Positions 8,729 through 60,243 of a DNA stretch of 64,000 nucleotides are shown piece after piece. The DNA lies in NCBI RefSeq assembly GCF_000237825.1, contig NZ_CM001377.1, positions 930,001 through 994,000 of the forward strand, in the 5' to 3' direction. The first letter of the stretch is position 1. Each line of letters opens with the position of its first letter. Below the pieces are notes generated by a model that was given only the letters and a program-made list of their open reading frames with translations, was not told where the DNA came from and searched no databases. The stretch comes from Thermanaerovibrio velox DSM 12556 (lineage in GTDB: Bacteria > Synergistota > Synergistia > Synergistales > Synergistaceae). Position numbers and translations under genes: made by a program.

Positions 8729-8758
8729 TTGACTTGTCGAGGTCGCCCATGGTATAAG
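8729..8758 (+). promoter_or_regulatory. Sigma-70-type promoter of the serine operon leader
   Basis: TTGACT at 8729-8734 and TATAAG at 8753-8758 are spaced by 18 bases, a near-consensus promoter. Predicted transcription start is about 8765, leaving a 25-base leader before the GTG start of the serine-rich leader peptide. Confidence 0.7.
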
Positions 8759-8789
8759 CAACCAAATTTTACGAAGAGAGGTGAAGCCG

Positions 8790-8966
8790 GTGCATATCAT
8801 GTCATTACTTCGCAATCTAAAGATGTGCTCCACAACCTCTCAGGCACTCAATACGGAGGCTTTAGGTTATCGTTTTTCTTCCCACTCAGGTTCCCTCTCT
8901 TGGTCCTCTTCAAATTCTGGAGAGGATACGGTTGGATCATACATCGTACCTGGGCCCCCGATATAG
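8790..8966 (+). CDS. Serine-rich leader peptide (predicted attenuator)
   Basis: This 58-codon frame begins with GTG at 8790, five bases after an AGAGGTGA ribosome site, and ends with TAG at 8964-8966. Thirteen of 58 residues are serine, and nine of the 14 codons from 30 to 43 (8877-8918) are serine: SSHSGSLSWSSSNS. It has its own strong promoter upstream and a strong terminator 49 bases after its stop. Genes for the phosphorylated serine pathway follow. I recognise no protein family. The composition and placement match a leader peptide of ribosome-mediated attenuation, where uncharged tRNA-Ser would stall the ribosome in the serine cluster. A longer in-frame GTG at 8781 lacks a spaced ribosome site. 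The regulatory role is inference; the codon cluster and its flanking signals are directly visible. Confidence 0.8.
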   Translation: MHIMSLLRNLKMCSTTSQALNTEALGYRFSSHSGSLSWSSSNSGEDTVGSYIVPGPPI

Positions 8967-9015: not shown

Positions 9016-9053
9016 AGCGGGGGAGGCTGCTACGAACCTCCCCCGCTCTTTTT
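9016..9053 (+). terminator. Attenuator terminator upstream of the serine genes
   Basis: A perfect 11-base-pair GC-rich stem (9016-9026 with 9037-9047) and a 10-base loop are followed by CTTTTT. It lies between the leader peptide stop and the aminotransferase gene. Its left arm (CGGGGG, 9018-9023) can instead pair with CCCCCG at 8955-8960, inside the last leader codons, with CTAAA (8986-8990) adding pairs to TTTAG (9013-9017). That gives a candidate antiterminator. Confidence 0.88.
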
Positions 9054-9075: not shown

Positions 9076-9117
9076 AACCCCTCTGTAATGGAGCTTTTAT
9101 TTGGCTCTAGAGGGGTT
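9076..9117 (+). other. Hairpin just upstream of the aminotransferase ribosome site
   Basis: AACCCCTCT (9076-9084) pairs perfectly with AGAGGGGTT (9109-9117), with an inner GAGC/GCTC helix. There is no T-run after it, so it is not a terminator. The CCTCT part of the left arm could also pair with AGAGG at 9121-9125 in the ribosome site. A role in mRNA stability or translation control is possible. Confidence 0.6.
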
Positions 9118-9137
9118 AAAAGAGGAGGTAGATAAAA

Positions 9138-10274
9138 TTGAGAATGCTATTAACCCCAGGACCAGTTGAAGTCCCCTTTGACGTATCTATTCGCGGCAGC
9201 ATGCGGATGATATCCCACAGGGGGCCTGAGTTCTCCAGCCTCTATTCTGACCTGCTTCACCAATTATCCCGTCTCTTTGAGGTTGAAGAGCCTCCAATCC
9301 CGATACCTGGATCAGGTACGGGAGCGTTGGACGCTCTTTGCGGGAACTTGATATCCCCGGGTGATAGGGTCATATCAATATCTTGCGGATTCTTCGGCGA
9401 AAGATTCCGTGAGATAGCGTCAAGGTGCGGGGCTTCCCTGGAGATCATAGACGTACCCTGGGGGGAATCGTTGGAGGTCCACCACCTGTTAGAAGCGTTG
9501 GAACGTTTCCCAAACGCGAGGGCAATACTTCTGACCCACAATGAGACGTCCACTGGGGTGCTTAACCCGGTAGAAGATCTGGCGGGATCTGTTCCTAAGG
9601 ATGGGCCATTGATACTTTTGGATGCGGTAAGCTCCGCAGGGGCTATGCCTTGCCTTCCCGAAAGGTGGGGCATTGATGGTGTAGCCGCCTCTTCACAGAA
9701 GGGATTGATGGCCCCCCCGGGGGTCGGATTGGTATGGCTATCCAAGCGGGCTTGGAGTAGAGCCCAAGAGGTACGGTGCCCTTCCTACTCCATGGATTTG
9801 AAGTTATATAAGAAAAACTTAACCGATGCTCCGGAAACTCCATACACTCCCCCGGTATCCCTGTATGCCCAGCTACTAAAGGGGGTTGAGATCATCCTTA
9901 GTTCTGGCAAGGAAGAATGGTGGAAAAGTCGGGCCCGCATTTCTAGGGCCCTATGCGCTGCCGTGGAAGCAATGGGATTGGACCTCTTGGTTAAATCCCC
10001 AAACAGGAGATCCCCTGGCTTAACCGCTATAAAAATGCCCCCTAATCTAGCCAATGGAGTTCGCTCAAGTCTAAAGGGCATGGGGCTTCAAGTGGCGGGA
10101 GGGCAAGGGGGGCTTAAGGACAGCCTCATCAGAATTGCCCATTATACGGATATGGACTGGCCGGAGGTTTGCATGATCATAGGATCCCTATGGAGAGCCT
10201 TAAATGATCTTGGAGTAAGGGCCGATGTCGGCTGTGCCCTTGAAACGGCGAATAAGATTATGAGCGAGAGGTGA
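9138..10274 (+). CDS. Class V aminotransferase, likely phosphoserine/serine-type transaminase
   Basis: This 378-residue PLP enzyme belongs to the alanine-glyoxylate/serine-pyruvate aminotransferase group. It has the N-terminal LTPGPVEVP, the glycine-rich PGSGTGALDA, LLDAVSSAGAMP and the Schiff-base lysine K188 in SSQKG. The start is TTG at 9138, eight bases after AGGAGGT; an ATG two codons later has poorer spacing. It is not the classical SerC subtype. Being first in an operon with serA and a phosphatase, it most likely transaminates 3-phosphohydroxypyruvate in serine synthesis, as related class V enzymes are thought to do where serC is absent. Glycine/serine-pyruvate transamination is the alternative. 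Confidence 0.88.
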   Translation: MRMLLTPGPVEVPFDVSIRGSMRMISHRGPEFSSLYSDLLHQLSRLFEVEEPPIPIPGSGTGALDALCGNLISPGDRVISISCGFFGERFREIASRCGASLEIIDVPWGESLEVHHLLEALERFPNARAILLTHNETSTGVLNPVEDLAGSVPKDGPLILLDAVSSAGAMPCLPERWGIDGVAASSQKGLMAPPGVGLVWLSKRAWSRAQEVRCPSYSMDLKLYKKNLTDAPETPYTPPVSLYAQLLKGVEIILSSGKEEWWKSRARISRALCAAVEAMGLDLLVKSPNRRSPGLTAIKMPPNLANGVRSSLKGMGLQVAGGQGGLKDSLIRIAHYTDMDWPEVCMIIGSLWRALNDLGVRADVGCALETANKIMSER

Positions 10275-10280
10275 GTTGCC

Positions 10281-11930
10281 GTGTGGAAGGTCTTGGTTAC
10301 CGAATCGATCCATGAGGAAGGCCTTAAAATCCTGCGAGACGCCGCAGATGTGACCCTGGTTGAAAGGGTTGGTATATCCAAGGAGGAGTTTTTGGCAGAA
10401 CTTGCAGACGCGGATGCCTTGCTAACTAGGAGCGGCACCGCCATAGATGTCCACGTGCTTGAATCGGCGCCCAAGCTTAAGGTGGTAGCAAGAGCAGGGG
10501 TTGGGGTGGATAACGTAGACCTTATGGAGGCAAGCAAGAGGGGTATTGTAGTGATAAACGCCCCTACGGGTAACACCCTGTCTGCAGCGGATCACACTAT
10601 GGCCCTCATGTTAAGCCTCGTACGAAGGGTGCCACAGGCTCATGCCTCCATCTTGGCGGGCAAATGGGATAGAAAGAGCTTCATGGGGCACCAGCTTCAT
10701 GCTAAAAAGCTCTTCATCATAGGTTTGGGGAAGATCGGTAGCCAAGTGGCTATCAGGGGAAGGGCTTTTGGCATGGAGGTTTACGCATATGATCCCTACG
10801 TGCCGGAGGTTAAGATGGATAACCTTGGGGTAGCACGGGTTGATAGCCTTGAAGATGGGCTTGCTATCGCAGATGTGGTGACAATTCATGTCCCTCTAAC
10901 TGATGAGACCAGGGGAATGTTGGACGAAAATCGCATAAGAACCGTTAAGCGAGGGGCTTACCTGATAAACTGCGCAAGAGGCGGCTTGATGGATGAGGTC
11001 GCTTGCTACAACGCGCTAAAAGATGGAAGGTTATCAGGGGTGGCCATAGATGTATATGGGCATGAGCCGGTTAGCAGTGACCATCCTATTTTAAGCGAGG
11101 ACGTTAGAGACAGGGTGGTATTGACCCCGCATATAGGGGCCAATACTTTCGAGGCCCAATCGGCAGTCGCCAGGATAGCTGCACAAAATCTGCTGGCGGC
11201 GTTAAGAGGTGAACCGTATGAGCATGCGGTCAACCTGCCATTTATGAAGCATCGGCTATCAGACTTGAAAAAAAAGTTCCTGGCCTTATCTAGAAACCTC
11301 GGCATACTGGGCACCCATATGGCGGATCTAACAAAAGGGGCCGTGAAATCCTGCAGCTTGGTGCTCAGAGGGCCTGTATTTCAAGAGGAAGATGAGCCGA
11401 TAAAGTTCGATGCACCATTTAGATTGAAACCCTACACCGTGGCTTTCCTTAAGGGGCTTCTGGAGGTACGGCATGGAGCTGAGGTTAACTATATGATAGC
11501 CCCGCTTATTGCCCGGGATAAGGGCATAGATATCGAGGAGGGCACGGGAGAATCCAACACCTATAGGAACGTCATAGAAGTGGTCATAACCACAGAGAAG
11601 GGTTCCGTCCGGCTTATGGGAACAGTTACAGAGGAAGGCAGACAAAGGGTGGTTAGAATAAACGATTACTGGCTCGATCTGATACCTTCGGGCAAGATTT
11701 TGCTATTCCAGAACCACGATAGGCCTGGTGTAATAGGCAAGGTGGGGACTTTGCTTGGCAGGGCCAACGTCAACATAGCGAACTTCGCTTTAGGTAGAAA
11801 GAATGAGAGCGGCCTTGCCCTAGCAGCGATGCAGATAGATCAAGACCTTAGCGAAGACCTGCTCAAAACCCTCAGAGAGGATGTGGACCTCATCTGGGCC
11901 ACCACGGTCTCGTTGAAGGAGGATCTGTGA
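10281..11930 (+). CDS. serA: D-3-phosphoglycerate dehydrogenase
   Basis: This 549-residue enzyme oxidises 3-phosphoglycerate to 3-phosphohydroxypyruvate, committing carbon to serine. The NAD-binding GLGKIG is at residues 148-153. The catalytic Arg/Glu/His region is visible as NCARGG and LTPHIGANT. An intervening ASB domain and a C-terminal ACT domain follow (about 475-549, NHDRPGVIGKVGTLLGRANVNI), matching the long type common in Gram-positive and deep-branching bacteria. ACT domains usually bind serine for feedback control. The start is GTG at 10281, following GAGAGGTGA and six bases after the aminotransferase stop. Confidence 0.96.
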   Translation: MWKVLVTESIHEEGLKILRDAADVTLVERVGISKEEFLAELADADALLTRSGTAIDVHVLESAPKLKVVARAGVGVDNVDLMEASKRGIVVINAPTGNTLSAADHTMALMLSLVRRVPQAHASILAGKWDRKSFMGHQLHAKKLFIIGLGKIGSQVAIRGRAFGMEVYAYDPYVPEVKMDNLGVARVDSLEDGLAIADVVTIHVPLTDETRGMLDENRIRTVKRGAYLINCARGGLMDEVACYNALKDGRLSGVAIDVYGHEPVSSDHPILSEDVRDRVVLTPHIGANTFEAQSAVARIAAQNLLAALRGEPYEHAVNLPFMKHRLSDLKKKFLALSRNLGILGTHMADLTKGAVKSCSLVLRGPVFQEEDEPIKFDAPFRLKPYTVAFLKGLLEVRHGAEVNYMIAPLIARDKGIDIEEGTGESNTYRNVIEVVITTEKGSVRLMGTVTEEGRQRVVRINDYWLDLIPSGKILLFQNHDRPGVIGKVGTLLGRANVNIANFALGRKNESGLALAAMQIDQDLSEDLLKTLREDVDLIWATTVSLKEDL

Positions 11931-12577
11931 TGAATCTAGTCTTGATTAGGCATGGTCAGACCGATTGGAACAGAGAGGGTCGATTTCAAGGGAGGATTGA
12001 CGTACCCCTTAACGAAGTTGGTTCTCAAGAGGCATTGGCTTTAGCATCTAGGTTGAGAGATGTCAATGTAGATCTGATAGTCTCAAGCCCCTTAAGCAGG
12101 GCATTGAAAACCGCTGAGGCCTTAGCCCAGTTGAATATGGGCATGCCGGATTTGGAGATTTGGGAGGACCTTGCAGAAATAAACCACGGCGATTGGGAGG
12201 GGTTGCTTTTCGAAGAAGTCCTCGCGAAGTGGCCCGACCTCCTGCGCCTTTGGAGGATTCGTCCGTCAGAGGTCACCATGCCAAACGGGGAGAACCTTGA
12301 TCAAGTTGCCCAAAGGGCAAATAGGGCTATCGGGGTTACTAAAGACAGATTATCTACTAAGGATGGAACCGTGTGTCTAGTAACCCATGACGCGGTTATA
12401 AAGGTCATCCTTTGCAACGTCTTACAGGCCCCCTTGGACTCGTTTTGGCGGTTTATAATACCCAACGCAAGCCTTACGGTGATAAGGTTTATCGAAGGTA
12501 TCCCCAAGCTGGCCCTCTTGGGAGATTCAAATCACCTTAACAGGGGATTTGTCTTTTCAGAGCAGAGGGGGTTGTGA
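11930..12577 (+). CDS. Histidine-family phosphatase, likely phosphoserine phosphatase
   Basis: This 215-residue protein of the phosphoglycerate-mutase-like superfamily has the catalytic RHG triad (phospho-histidine H8) in LIRHGQTDWNREGRFQGR, plus SSPLSRALKTAEAL and the second histidine in VTHDAVIK. Superfamily members include cofactor-dependent mutases, CobC and metal-independent phosphoserine phosphatases such as those described from Hydrogenobacter thermophilus. Lying directly behind serA, with its ATG overlapping the serA stop, it is the natural candidate for the last step, phosphoserine to serine. A GTG one codon earlier is possible, but the ATG is better placed behind AAGGAGG. Substrate is inferred from context. 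Confidence 0.85.
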   Translation: MNLVLIRHGQTDWNREGRFQGRIDVPLNEVGSQEALALASRLRDVNVDLIVSSPLSRALKTAEALAQLNMGMPDLEIWEDLAEINHGDWEGLLFEEVLAKWPDLLRLWRIRPSEVTMPNGENLDQVAQRANRAIGVTKDRLSTKDGTVCLVTHDAVIKVILCNVLQAPLDSFWRFIIPNASLTVIRFIEGIPKLALLGDSNHLNRGFVFSEQRGL

Positions 12578-13189: not shown

Positions 13190-13822
13190 TTATATGCCCA
13201 GCTTTTGGGCTAAGAGCTCCTCCACTTCCGCCCCAATCTTGGCTACCTTATCAAGGCATGTCCTTACGCTATCCTCACAGGTCCTTACGAAGTCCTGGTC
13301 GTCTATGCCTGGCAGGTTGATGAAAACGTTGTAAGCCGCCGCCTTAGCCGCTGCCCGTGCCAAAAGGGCGGCGGTGCCAGCGTCGGTTACCGCGTTGGGA
13401 TTCCCACTCCTCGCAGCTTCGAGGGCTATCTCTGCCAGCGCTTCACAGCTCCTCAGGGTTGCCAGAGGAACCATAGCGGTTCTCTTAGAGGCCTCTGCGA
13501 TCGCCTGTGCCCTTGCGGCCTTTTCTTGATCCGTATCCTTAGGCATTTTCCTAGCCGCCATAAACTGATTGAAGGATTCCGTGTCCTCTTCCATTAGCTC
13601 CAAGAACTTCTTGTTAAGAGCCAACCCGTCGGAAATCACCTTCTCCATCACATCCCAGGACTCTTTGTACTTTTCCTTGCCAACGGTAAGCCGTGCCACC
13701 ATCGTTGCCAACGCTCCACCGAGGGCTCCGCAGAGGGCCGCAACGCTACCTCCGCCAGGGGCAGGGGAATCGGACGCTAATTCTTCAACAAACGATTTAA
13801 CCGTCATATCTTGAAGACTCAT
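13190..13822 (-). CDS. fchA: Formimidoyltetrahydrofolate cyclodeaminase
   Basis: This 210-residue helical protein converts 5-formimino-THF to 5,10-methenyl-THF with release of ammonia. Characteristic segments are the N-terminal SFVEELASDSPAPGGGSVAALCGALGGAL region (not quoted fully here as one motif), MVARLTVGKEKY and the C-terminal NVFINLPGIDD. It is the stand-alone bacterial form of the domain that in animals is fused to glutamate formiminotransferase. Here it closes the hutH-ftcD-hutI-fchA set, so the one-carbon unit from histidine would enter the folate pool for energy or anabolic use. Confidence 0.94.
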   Translation of the reverse strand: MSLQDMTVKSFVEELASDSPAPGGGSVAALCGALGGALATMVARLTVGKEKYKESWDVMEKVISDGLALNKKFLELMEEDTESFNQFMAARKMPKDTDQEKAARAQAIAEASKRTAMVPLATLRSCEALAEIALEAARSGNPNAVTDAGTAALLARAAAKAAAYNVFINLPGIDDQDFVRTCEDSVRTCLDKVAKIGAEVEELLAQKLGI

Positions 13823-13873
13823 TATGGCTAATCCTCCCAGAAGATTTTTTAGTGCTGTAACCCTAATTGGGGG

Positions 13874-15118
13874 CTATACCACTTTCTCTCCCCGCTTGTA
13901 AACTTCAAGCACCGAGTTAGCCCCAACATGGTAGGCCATGGTAGCCGGGGTCTTCCCATCCAACACCACGAAATCCGCCAGTTTCCCCTCCTCTAGGGAT
14001 CCTACCAGGTGTCCCATGCCTATCGCATGAGCAGCGTTTAACGTACAGCCAACCAATGCCTCCTCCACTGACATGCCCATATTCATCACCGCAAGGCCAA
14101 AGACAAACTGCATGGACTCGCAGAAGCATGACCCAGGGTTACAATCGGTGGCTAGAGCCACTGGCACCCCAAGCTCGATCATCCTGCGGGCCCTTGCATA
14201 TGGTTTTTTGAGGCTGTAAGCGGTCGCAGGAAGGAGTACAGCTATGACTCCTGCTTCTGCCATGGCATTCAAACCCTCATCGGAAGCGGCCAAGAGATGC
14301 TCTGCGGATAAAGTACGGAGTTCTGCTGCAAGAGAAGCTCCGCCTAAATCATGCACCTCATCGGCATGGATCTTAAGTTCGAACCCGTTGCTCCTCGCAC
14401 ATGACAATATCCTGCGGGACTGATCAACCGAGAACACACCATCCTCACAGAACACGTCGCAGAAGCGAGCTATGCCCTGCTCTGCAGCGGCGGGTATCAC
14501 CTCGCCGCATAACAGGTCCACGAACTTATCCGGGTTGTTCCTAAAGTCCTCGGGCACCGCATGAGCCCCCATAAAAGTTGCAACCACGTCTAAATGGGTT
14601 TCTTTCCCAACCCGGTTTATGACGCTGAGCATCCTAAGCTCCGATTCAGTATCCAATCCATAGCCGCTTTTTATCTCCACAGTGGTGGTTCCGTGTTTAA
14701 GGGCATTGATGGCGTTCGTCTTGGTTACCTCGTATAGATCTTGATCGCTCGAGGTTCTAACTGCCCTCACGGACGATAATATCCCTCCGCCGGACCTCAA
14801 TATCTCAAGATATGGGACCCCATGCAACCTCTTGGAAAACTCTTCTTCCCTCCTCGAGGCGAAACACATGTGAGTGTGGGGATCGACTAAACCTGGTATC
14901 ACACATTTGCCATGGAGGTTTATCTCTTGATTGACCTCAAGGGAGGAAGCATAGGCAAGCACTTCCTCCTCCGGTCCCACCATTTCAATTATCCCATCTC
15001 TACAGAGGATAGCCCCCAGTTCTATCTCCCGAATCCTTCCCTGTTCCACCCCCCGCAGGGGAGCAGTTCCAGCTTGGGGAGTGTATATCCTAGCGTTACG
15101 AAAGAGCTTTACGGTCAT
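13874..15118 (-). CDS. hutI: Imidazolonepropionase
   Basis: This 414-residue amidohydrolase opens the ring of 4-imidazolone-5-propionate to give N-formimino-L-glutamate. Metal-binding and substrate motifs are visible: DPHTHMCFASRREEEF, the HGTTTVEIKSGYGLD stretch, KIHADEVHD and the late ATDCNPGSCFCESM. Its ATG overlaps the ftcD stop (ATGA). The length is normal. It is the third step of histidine degradation and feeds the FtcD enzyme encoded immediately upstream. Confidence 0.95.
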   Translation of the reverse strand: MTVKLFRNARIYTPQAGTAPLRGVEQGRIREIELGAILCRDGIIEMVGPEEEVLAYASSLEVNQEINLHGKCVIPGLVDPHTHMCFASRREEEFSKRLHGVPYLEILRSGGGILSSVRAVRTSSDQDLYEVTKTNAINALKHGTTTVEIKSGYGLDTESELRMLSVINRVGKETHLDVVATFMGAHAVPEDFRNNPDKFVDLLCGEVIPAAAEQGIARFCDVFCEDGVFSVDQSRRILSCARSNGFELKIHADEVHDLGGASLAAELRTLSAEHLLAASDEGLNAMAEAGVIAVLLPATAYSLKKPYARARRMIELGVPVALATDCNPGSCFCESMQFVFGLAVMNMGMSVEEALVGCTLNAAHAIGMGHLVGSLEEGKLADFVVLDGKTPATMAYHVGANSVLEVYKRGEKVV

Positions 15119-16038
15119 TTCAAACCCTCTCCCATCAGCTTGAGCAACCTAAGCTCTATAACCTGCTGGGGATCAAAATCGGCCACTTGCATATAATAGG
15201 CTGCGCTATCCAAGATGGCTCCAGCGGGTATCATGCCGTATATCTCAGTCTCCACAACTGGCACGCCGTAGCGCTTGGCCTCCATCCTTATGGTCTCAAG
15301 CACCCGGTAAAGGGAGTTCTTCTCGTAATCCACCAGGTTCATGCTAACCTGTACCATGCCCTTATCCTCCAAGGCCACTCCTATGCCCTTCACGTGACAG
15401 AACCCTCCGCTGGATGCCCTCACGTAGGATGCTATCTTCTTGGCCACATCCAAGTTGGTGGTCCCCAAGTTTACATTAAAAGCAACCAAGAACTTCCTAG
15501 CCCCTATGACGGTGGCCCCAGCGGTGGGGTGAAGTGCCGGTCCCCCTACATCAGGTTGCCTCTCGGGATTACTGACTGCCTCGTCCTTTAACGCTTCATA
15601 TTGTCCCTTCCTTATGACCTCCAGTTTCTTGCGATCCGGTTTCAATGCGGCATCCTCGTAATAGTAGACGGGGATACCGGTAGCCTCATGGTATCGTCTG
15701 CCAAACCCCCTGGCCAACTCCACACATTCCTCCATGGTTATGCCTGAGATCGGGGTAAACGGGATAACATCCACCGCACCAATCCTCGGATGTGCCCCTT
15801 TATGGTTGTTCATATCTATGTGAGATTGAGCGATCTTAGCGGACTCTATGATGGCTTCCTGAAGAGAATCGGGATCCCCTACCAGGCTGACGACTAAGCG
15901 GTTATGGTCCTCATCAGCTCTATAATCGAAGAGATAAACCCCTTGCCTGTTCTTGAAAGGCTCCACTATGGCCTCTATAACTTCTTTCCTGCGACCTTCG
16001 CTGTAGTTGGGTACACATTCCACAAAGGCTTTTTCCAA
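15115..16038 (-). CDS. ftcD: Glutamate formimidoyltransferase
   Basis: This 307-residue protein transfers the formimino group of N-formiminoglutamate to tetrahydrofolate, leaving glutamate. Diagnostic stretches are VECVPNYSEGRRKEVIEAI, DADHNR-like DEDHNRLVVSLVGDP, and MNNHKGAHPRIGAVDVIPFTP. It corresponds to the N-terminal transferase half of animal FTCD, with the cyclodeaminase supplied separately by fchA. The start is TTG at 16038 with GGGAGGT upstream. It lies 44 bases after hutH and overlaps hutI, consistent with one operon. Confidence 0.95.
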   Translation of the reverse strand: MEKAFVECVPNYSEGRRKEVIEAIVEPFKNRQGVYLFDYRADEDHNRLVVSLVGDPDSLQEAIIESAKIAQSHIDMNNHKGAHPRIGAVDVIPFTPISGITMEECVELARGFGRRYHEATGIPVYYYEDAALKPDRKKLEVIRKGQYEALKDEAVSNPERQPDVGGPALHPTAGATVIGARKFLVAFNVNLGTTNLDVAKKIASYVRASSGGFCHVKGIGVALEDKGMVQVSMNLVDYEKNSLYRVLETIRMEAKRYGVPVVETEIYGMIPAGAILDSAAYYMQVADFDPQQVIELRLLKLMGEGLK

Positions 16039-60168: not shown

Positions 60169-60243
60169 TGGTGGGTGGTAGAGGATTCGAACCTCTGACC
60201 TCCTCCGCGTCAAGGAGGCGTTCTACCCCTGAACTAACCACCC
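60169..60243 (-). tRNA. tRNA-Val(GAC)
   Basis: The minus strand folds into a complete cloverleaf of 75 bases including an encoded CCA. It has a GGGTGGT/ACCACCC acceptor, a GTTC/GAAC D-stem, an anticodon stem CCTCC/GGAGG with loop TTGACGC (anticodon GAC, valine), a five-base variable loop, and an AGAGG/CCTCT T-arm with TTCGAAT. It has its own consensus promoter and a hairpin behind it. Confidence 0.96.

Follow-up and report, generated by a model that had tools for sequence, protein, structure and literature searches.

The stretch analysed here, a window of 64,000 nucleotides of the thermophilic anaerobe Thermanaerovibrio velox DSM 12556 (Synergistota; contig NZ_CM001377.1, positions 930,001 to 994,000), carries a candidate operon for serine synthesis with a putative attenuator in front of it. 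Three intact, co-oriented genes encode a class V aminotransferase of the AGT/SPT type (AT), the 3-phosphoglycerate dehydrogenase SerA and a histidine phosphatase; a gap of 6 bases separates AT from SerA, the SerA stop overlaps the phosphatase start by 4 bases, and the three genes form one operon (Table 1). SerA passed the PGDH equivalog model with 579.7 bits (cut-off 454). The upstream region contains a serine-rich leader open reading frame (ORF), followed by a predicted intrinsic terminator.

Table 1. Features of the serine locus (window coordinates)
Feature	Position	Strand	Basis and remarks
Promoter-like TTGACT-N18-TATAAG	8729..8758	+	read by eye; tentative
Serine-rich leader peptide ORF	8790..8966	+	start uncertain (GTG 8781, GTG 8790 or ATG 8799); kind of ORF conserved in relatives
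10-bp hairpin within the serine codons, candidate 1:2 pairing	8903..8927	+	predicted fold
Candidate antiterminator segment CCCCCG, with complementarity to the terminator 5' arm	8955..8960	+	duplex prediction
Intrinsic terminator: 11-bp stem 9016-9047, then TTTTT 9049-9053	9016..9053	+	predicted, dG -23.3 kcal/mol
AT ribosome-binding site GAGGAGGT	9123..9130	+	read from sequence
AGT/SPT-type class V aminotransferase (AT), proposed phosphoserine aminotransferase	9138..10274	+	domain and profile searches, PDB matches, alignment
SerA, 3-phosphoglycerate dehydrogenase with intervening and ACT domains	10281..11930	+	domain and profile searches
Histidine phosphatase, PspA-like, proposed phosphoserine phosphatase	11927..12577	+	profile searches, PDB match, His85 motif, tree

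An earlier interpretation of this DNA (the sequence-only reading) had described SerA as flanked by a class V aminotransferase other than classical SerC and by a histidine-family phosphatase in place of the HAD-type SerB, and the profile searches bear out both descriptions: AT belongs to Pfam Aminotran_5 (89.3 bits, cut-off 21.5) and scored 31.2 bits with the serC model serC_3 (cut-off 401.65), while the phosphatase was assigned to branch 1 of the histidine phosphatases (Pfam His_Phos_1; 204.2 bits, cut-off 21.7). The nearest PDB entries of AT were 2dr1 (191 bits) and 1vjo (151 bits). Its SQK motif (S186, Q187, K188), the lysine of which we take to be the pyridoxal phosphate lysine, was invariant in all 20 aligned relatives. 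AT is proposed to be a phosphoserine aminotransferase resembling the predicted enzyme SerC3 (see below), which would act on 3-phosphohydroxypyruvate.

A genome-wide search for classical serC and serB, named in the sequence-only reading as the check on its proposal, was carried out on the host genome (one contig of 1,880,838 bases, 99.96% complete); neither the classical SerC model TIGR01364 nor the classical SerB model TIGR00338 had a single match in it. The HAD search with PF12710 gave only two weak places: a phosphoglycolate-phosphatase-like HAD protein (best model TIGR01449, 78.5 bits, below cut-off) and a place within a frame of 734 amino acids. Aminotran_5 matched nine places including AT, the others being presumably cysteine-desulfurase-, HisC-, DegT-, SelA- and KBL-like apart from one further AGT-type protein (L005 in our locus numbering). 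A classical SerB or SerC hidden elsewhere in this genome was consequently rejected, as the profile, HAD and class V searches show none. As a separate observation, a second cysteine-desulfurase-like gene (L002 and L004, G000:C1:1588701-1589808) is split across two reading frames. Among the 185 genomes of the phylum that served as the set of relatives, the TIGR00338 cut-off was reached in none; ten matches lay at 96-116 bits, so that sub-threshold SerB-type proteins do exist in relatives, and eight of these ten share a contig with a hit of the classical model serC_1.

The best solved match of the phosphatase was 4ij5, phosphoserine phosphatase 1 (PspA) of Hydrogenobacter thermophilus, with 115.5 bits (next enzyme: 93.6 bits). 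Both proteins possess an EIxHG motif (EINHG in the window), the histidine of which is residue 85 in 4ij5 and residue 87 in the window protein and is taken by us to be a substrate-binding residue. An equivalent of His85 was present in 47 of 48 cluster phosphatases (matches covering 150 query residues or fewer were left out), and the motif was absent from the host's three remaining histidine phosphatases, one of which is a phosphoglycerate mutase above cut-off. In a FastTree phylogeny of 42 sequences picked from those at hand, a clade of 31 (support 0.917; deeper nodes were weak) united 4ij5 with the window protein and the cluster phosphatases of Synergistota, with PhoE and the paralogues L011 and L012 of the host falling outside. 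The sequence-only reading had cited metal-independent phosphoserine phosphatases of Hydrogenobacter as a parallel. The window protein is proposed to be a PspA-like phosphoserine phosphatase, with O-phosphoserine as its predicted substrate.

Gene order was compared for AT matches of more than 200 bits in the set of relatives, the loci of which were fetched (72 AT loci, window included). SerA was located next to AT in 69 of them (two others are cut at contig ends, and L114 has no SerA), and the phosphatase was linked in 52, with nine cut at contig ends. The distributions of AT and classical serC were nearly exclusive: AT occurred in 72 and serC_1 above cut-off in 63 of the 185 genomes, both together only in G151 (Fisher 1.8e-16, uncorrected for genome kinship). 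The replacement is visible even within one genus (g28), in which G026 and G028 have AT-SerA-phosphatase and G025 and G029 have classical serC plus a leader-SerA-phosphatase operon devoid of AT. Neither AT nor a classical serC above cut-off was present in 51 genomes; these may belong to serine auxotrophs, be incomplete or use yet another transaminase. Outside the phylum (80 AT loci) SerA was near AT in 55 cases, a histidine phosphatase in five, all lacking His85, and the complete trio occurred once. In L188, L224, L226 and L230 (Chloroflexi, Rokubacteria and Rokuibacteriota records) AT is directly followed by a histidine phosphatase without SerA, and the His85 motif is absent. Within the phylum, AT-SerA loci with no adjacent phosphatase are L047, L048, L051-L054, L059, L061, L071 and L085 (ten; L114, itself devoid of SerA, is an eleventh AT locus with no phosphatase), and three of the genomes concerned (G126, G129, G150) have no His85 in their top-scoring histidine phosphatase.

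The serine-coding leader, put forward in the sequence-only reading as a strengthening detail, proved to be real and deserves more weight than it was given there. Counted from the first possible start (8781-8966), the ORF has 13 serine codons among 61, every one of them TCN, versus 49 TCN and 24 AGY codons in the three operon genes (Fisher 0.016). The 350 bases upstream of AT were scanned for ORFs with at least 6 (or at least 8) serines in 20 codons in 69 loci, three of the 72 having been dropped for fewer than 230 upstream bases; the antisense strand (69) and dinucleotide shuffles (1380) were used as controls. At least 6 serines were found in 56/69 loci compared to 10/69 antisense sequences and 122/1380 shuffles (8.8%), and at least 8 in 34/69 compared to 2/69 and 2/1380. 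The 56 leader cores (54 distinct) consisted of 40.9% serine, 15.4% glycine and 6.9% cysteine; since the cores were chosen for being serine-rich, their serine share is inflated, but not glycine, cysteine or the codon ratio as such, and serine-rich ORFs from the shuffles contained 6.5% glycine and 1.5% cysteine. The TCN:AGY ratio of the cores was 406:52, in contrast to 1128:331 in the AT genes (p 4.7e-8) and 1568:606 in the serine-rich shuffled ORFs. Leader sequences differed strongly between families.

In four of nine examined SerA-phosphatase loci without AT (L138, L139, L140, L147) the leader lies directly before SerA, an arrangement that connects it with the making of serine and not with AT; three further loci of this kind (L137, L118, L120) showed no leader, and L148 and L150 have no upstream sequence. 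Upstream of classical serC (20 loci, one with only 104 upstream bases and several with coding upstream regions) no ORF had at least 8 serines in 20 codons and four had 6 or 7. Outside the phylum, ORFs with at least 6 serines preceded AT in 8 of 80 loci, which is about the chance rate.

In 51 of 56 loci the leader is followed by a predicted terminator with a folding energy of -13 kcal/mol or lower, compared to 51 of 1120 shuffles (4.6%). A stricter terminator scan lists none in the window, its loop limit being 8 and the loop of this hairpin having 10 bases. The Rfam covariance scan of the window gave a tRNA at 60172-60243 as the sole match at gathering score; a T-box or the serC RNA (RF00517) in the leader region was considered and rejected for lack of an Rfam match. 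A second strong hairpin (9076-9117) lies between the terminator and the AT ribosome-binding site; L044, a close relative, has not retained it.

Leader and terminator together look like a ribosome-mediated serine attenuator, of which the stalling, the switch and the ligands are putative. According to this model, scarcity of charged UCN-serine tRNA (perhaps of glycyl- and cysteinyl-tRNA as well) would stall the ribosome in the leader ORF, the terminator would not be formed and the operon would be transcribed; with plentiful serine the leader would be translated through and the terminator would halt transcription. SerA would oxidise 3-phosphoglycerate to 3-phosphohydroxypyruvate, AT would convert the latter to O-phosphoserine, and the PspA-like phosphatase would release serine. 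That the three genes could accomplish all three steps had been suggested by the sequence-only reading; gene order, the lack of classical SerC and SerB matches in the host genome, the mutual exclusion of AT and serC, the PspA clade and the retained His85 agree with it, and the activities themselves stand as predictions. To a three-gene serine pathway from 3-phosphoglycerate, probably under ribosome-mediated attenuation, we assign a probability of roughly 80%.

Several observations weigh against this interpretation. The AGT-type paralogue L005 is a possible rival for the transamination. The phosphatase fell below the cut-off of the PspA equivalog model NF045917 (148.6 versus 350 bits) and scored one bit higher, at 149.6, with the CobC model TIGR03162; it is therefore named PspA-like and not PspA itself. 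The cluster phosphatase of L113 lacks His85, and 11 of the 72 loci have no phosphatase though the sequence continues past SerA, 8 of them with a leader. In the distant family f11 (L110-L113) the three genes are present and the leader is absent. Finally, the antiterminator pairing in the window was no better than in shuffles (p 0.29), and just 27 of 51 loci show predicted pairing of the segment after the serine codons with the terminator 5' arm at p<=0.05.

Two alternatives appear improbable to a similar degree. AT might instead connect serine with glycine, as a serine/alanine-glyoxylate or aspartate-glyoxylate aminotransferase, with phosphoserine being made by another enzyme: its top NCBIfam models describe aminotransferases of glyoxylate and pyridoxamine (190.3 bits with BhcA), although it stays far under the cut-off of each, and AGT enzymes are among its closest solved relatives, but this assignment is difficult to reconcile with a genome devoid of SerC, with the mutual exclusion of AT and serC_1 in the 185 genomes and the swap inside g28, or with the adjacency of AT and SerA in 55 of 80 loci of other phyla. 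Likewise, the leader ORF might be the by-product of a pyrimidine-rich RNA element (a riboswitch or protein-binding site), the translation of which would be irrelevant. The partial antiterminator signal and the strong divergence of the leaders between families would fit such an element; the serine counts far above those of dinucleotide shuffles, the surplus of cysteine and glycine over serine-rich shuffled ORFs, the TCN preference beyond that of the shuffles and the restriction of Rfam families in the window to one tRNA argue against it. Least probable is a CobC alpha-ribazole phosphatase or general sugar-phosphate phosphatase that is merely located in the operon, since, apart from the one-bit lead of TIGR03162, the protein missed the CobC cut-off (162.9 bits), groups with solved PspA away from PhoE, L011 and L012, belongs to a set with almost universally retained His85 and, where AT was lost (L138, L139, L140, L147), its counterparts remain with SerA and the serine leader.

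The two non-classical enzymes of the proposed pathway are ordinary in kind, as their types have already been described or predicted (SerC3, SerB2, PspA). PspA of H. thermophilus is likewise a branch-1 histidine phosphatase with EIxHG and His85 in a common clade with the window protein; unlike PspA, the latter remains under the PspA equivalog cut-off and shares an operon with SerA. Alternative serine enzymes, SerC3 and SerB2, were predicted in gut genomes, in separate combinations (PMC9026213): as here, a PF00266 aminotransferase adjoins serA, and so does a PF00300 phosphatase, which has 32% identity with its Hydrogenobacter counterpart; a set of all three genes behind a serine leader goes unmentioned in the passages on SerC3 and SerB2. 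The light-independent phosphoserine pathway of Synechocystis (Klemke 2015, as cited in PMC9026213 and PMC11257934) comprises the AGT-like transaminase P74281, a PF00266 protein likened to SerC3, and the phosphatase Slr1124, annotated as phosphoglycerate mutase; an operon arrangement and a leader, both present here, are not reported in the citing passages.

The more interesting part of the locus is the leader with its terminator, not the enzymes. Leader-peptide attenuators (PMC2965389, PMC1262725) likewise place a short ORF, in which the end product's codons occur, and then a terminator before biosynthetic genes; here, unlike in those systems, the control amino acid would be serine, together with glycine and cysteine, and the phylum is Synergistota. 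In Paenibacillus polymyxa, serA is preceded by a serine T-box (AGC specifier; PMC8002221), which is described as relieving a terminator under serine starvation, as is proposed here, but senses the tRNA directly, and the window has no T-box match. The alpha-proteobacterial serC element is presented as a translational hairpin (PMC1273637). UCN codons, in contrast to AGC/AGU, are reported to slow ribosomes under serine starvation in Bacillus subtilis and Escherichia coli (PMC3862929); in B. subtilis sinR this sensing takes place inside a coding gene without an attenuator. A description of a serine-specific leader peptide was not found in the open-access papers searched, subscription papers being mostly uncovered.

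Glycine and cysteine are the amino acids made from serine. Tentatively, and with somewhat less than even odds, the Synergistota leader may sense several charged tRNAs jointly (UCN serine, glycine and cysteine, i.e. the whole serine family), its codon choice being tuned to the serine isoacceptor depleted first, and would stay with SerA-phosphatase where classical SerC replaces the aminotransferase. If the leader works as the proposed attenuator, it offers a natural test of UCN isoacceptor-specific starvation sensing and of joint sensing of serine, glycine and cysteine, and serine would be added to the range of amino acids to which leader peptides respond; no report of such sensing from Synergistota was found in the open-access papers searched. 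The proposed assignments would close the serine pathway for much of the phylum, in which annotation with the classical models of SerC and SerB would leave two gaps, and the comparisons lend strong genomic support to a role of PspA-like phosphatases and AGT-type aminotransferases in serine synthesis.

As to the surroundings of the operon, the consensus promoter scan recorded none at the promoter-like element, its rule requiring T as the last base; a counterpart, TTGACG-N17-TATAAG, lies upstream of the relative locus L046. After the operon, genes on the opposite strand follow (13190-16038, minus strand), which we take to be concerned with histidine breakdown (FtcD-like, imidazolonepropionase-like and glutamate formimidoyltransferase-like).

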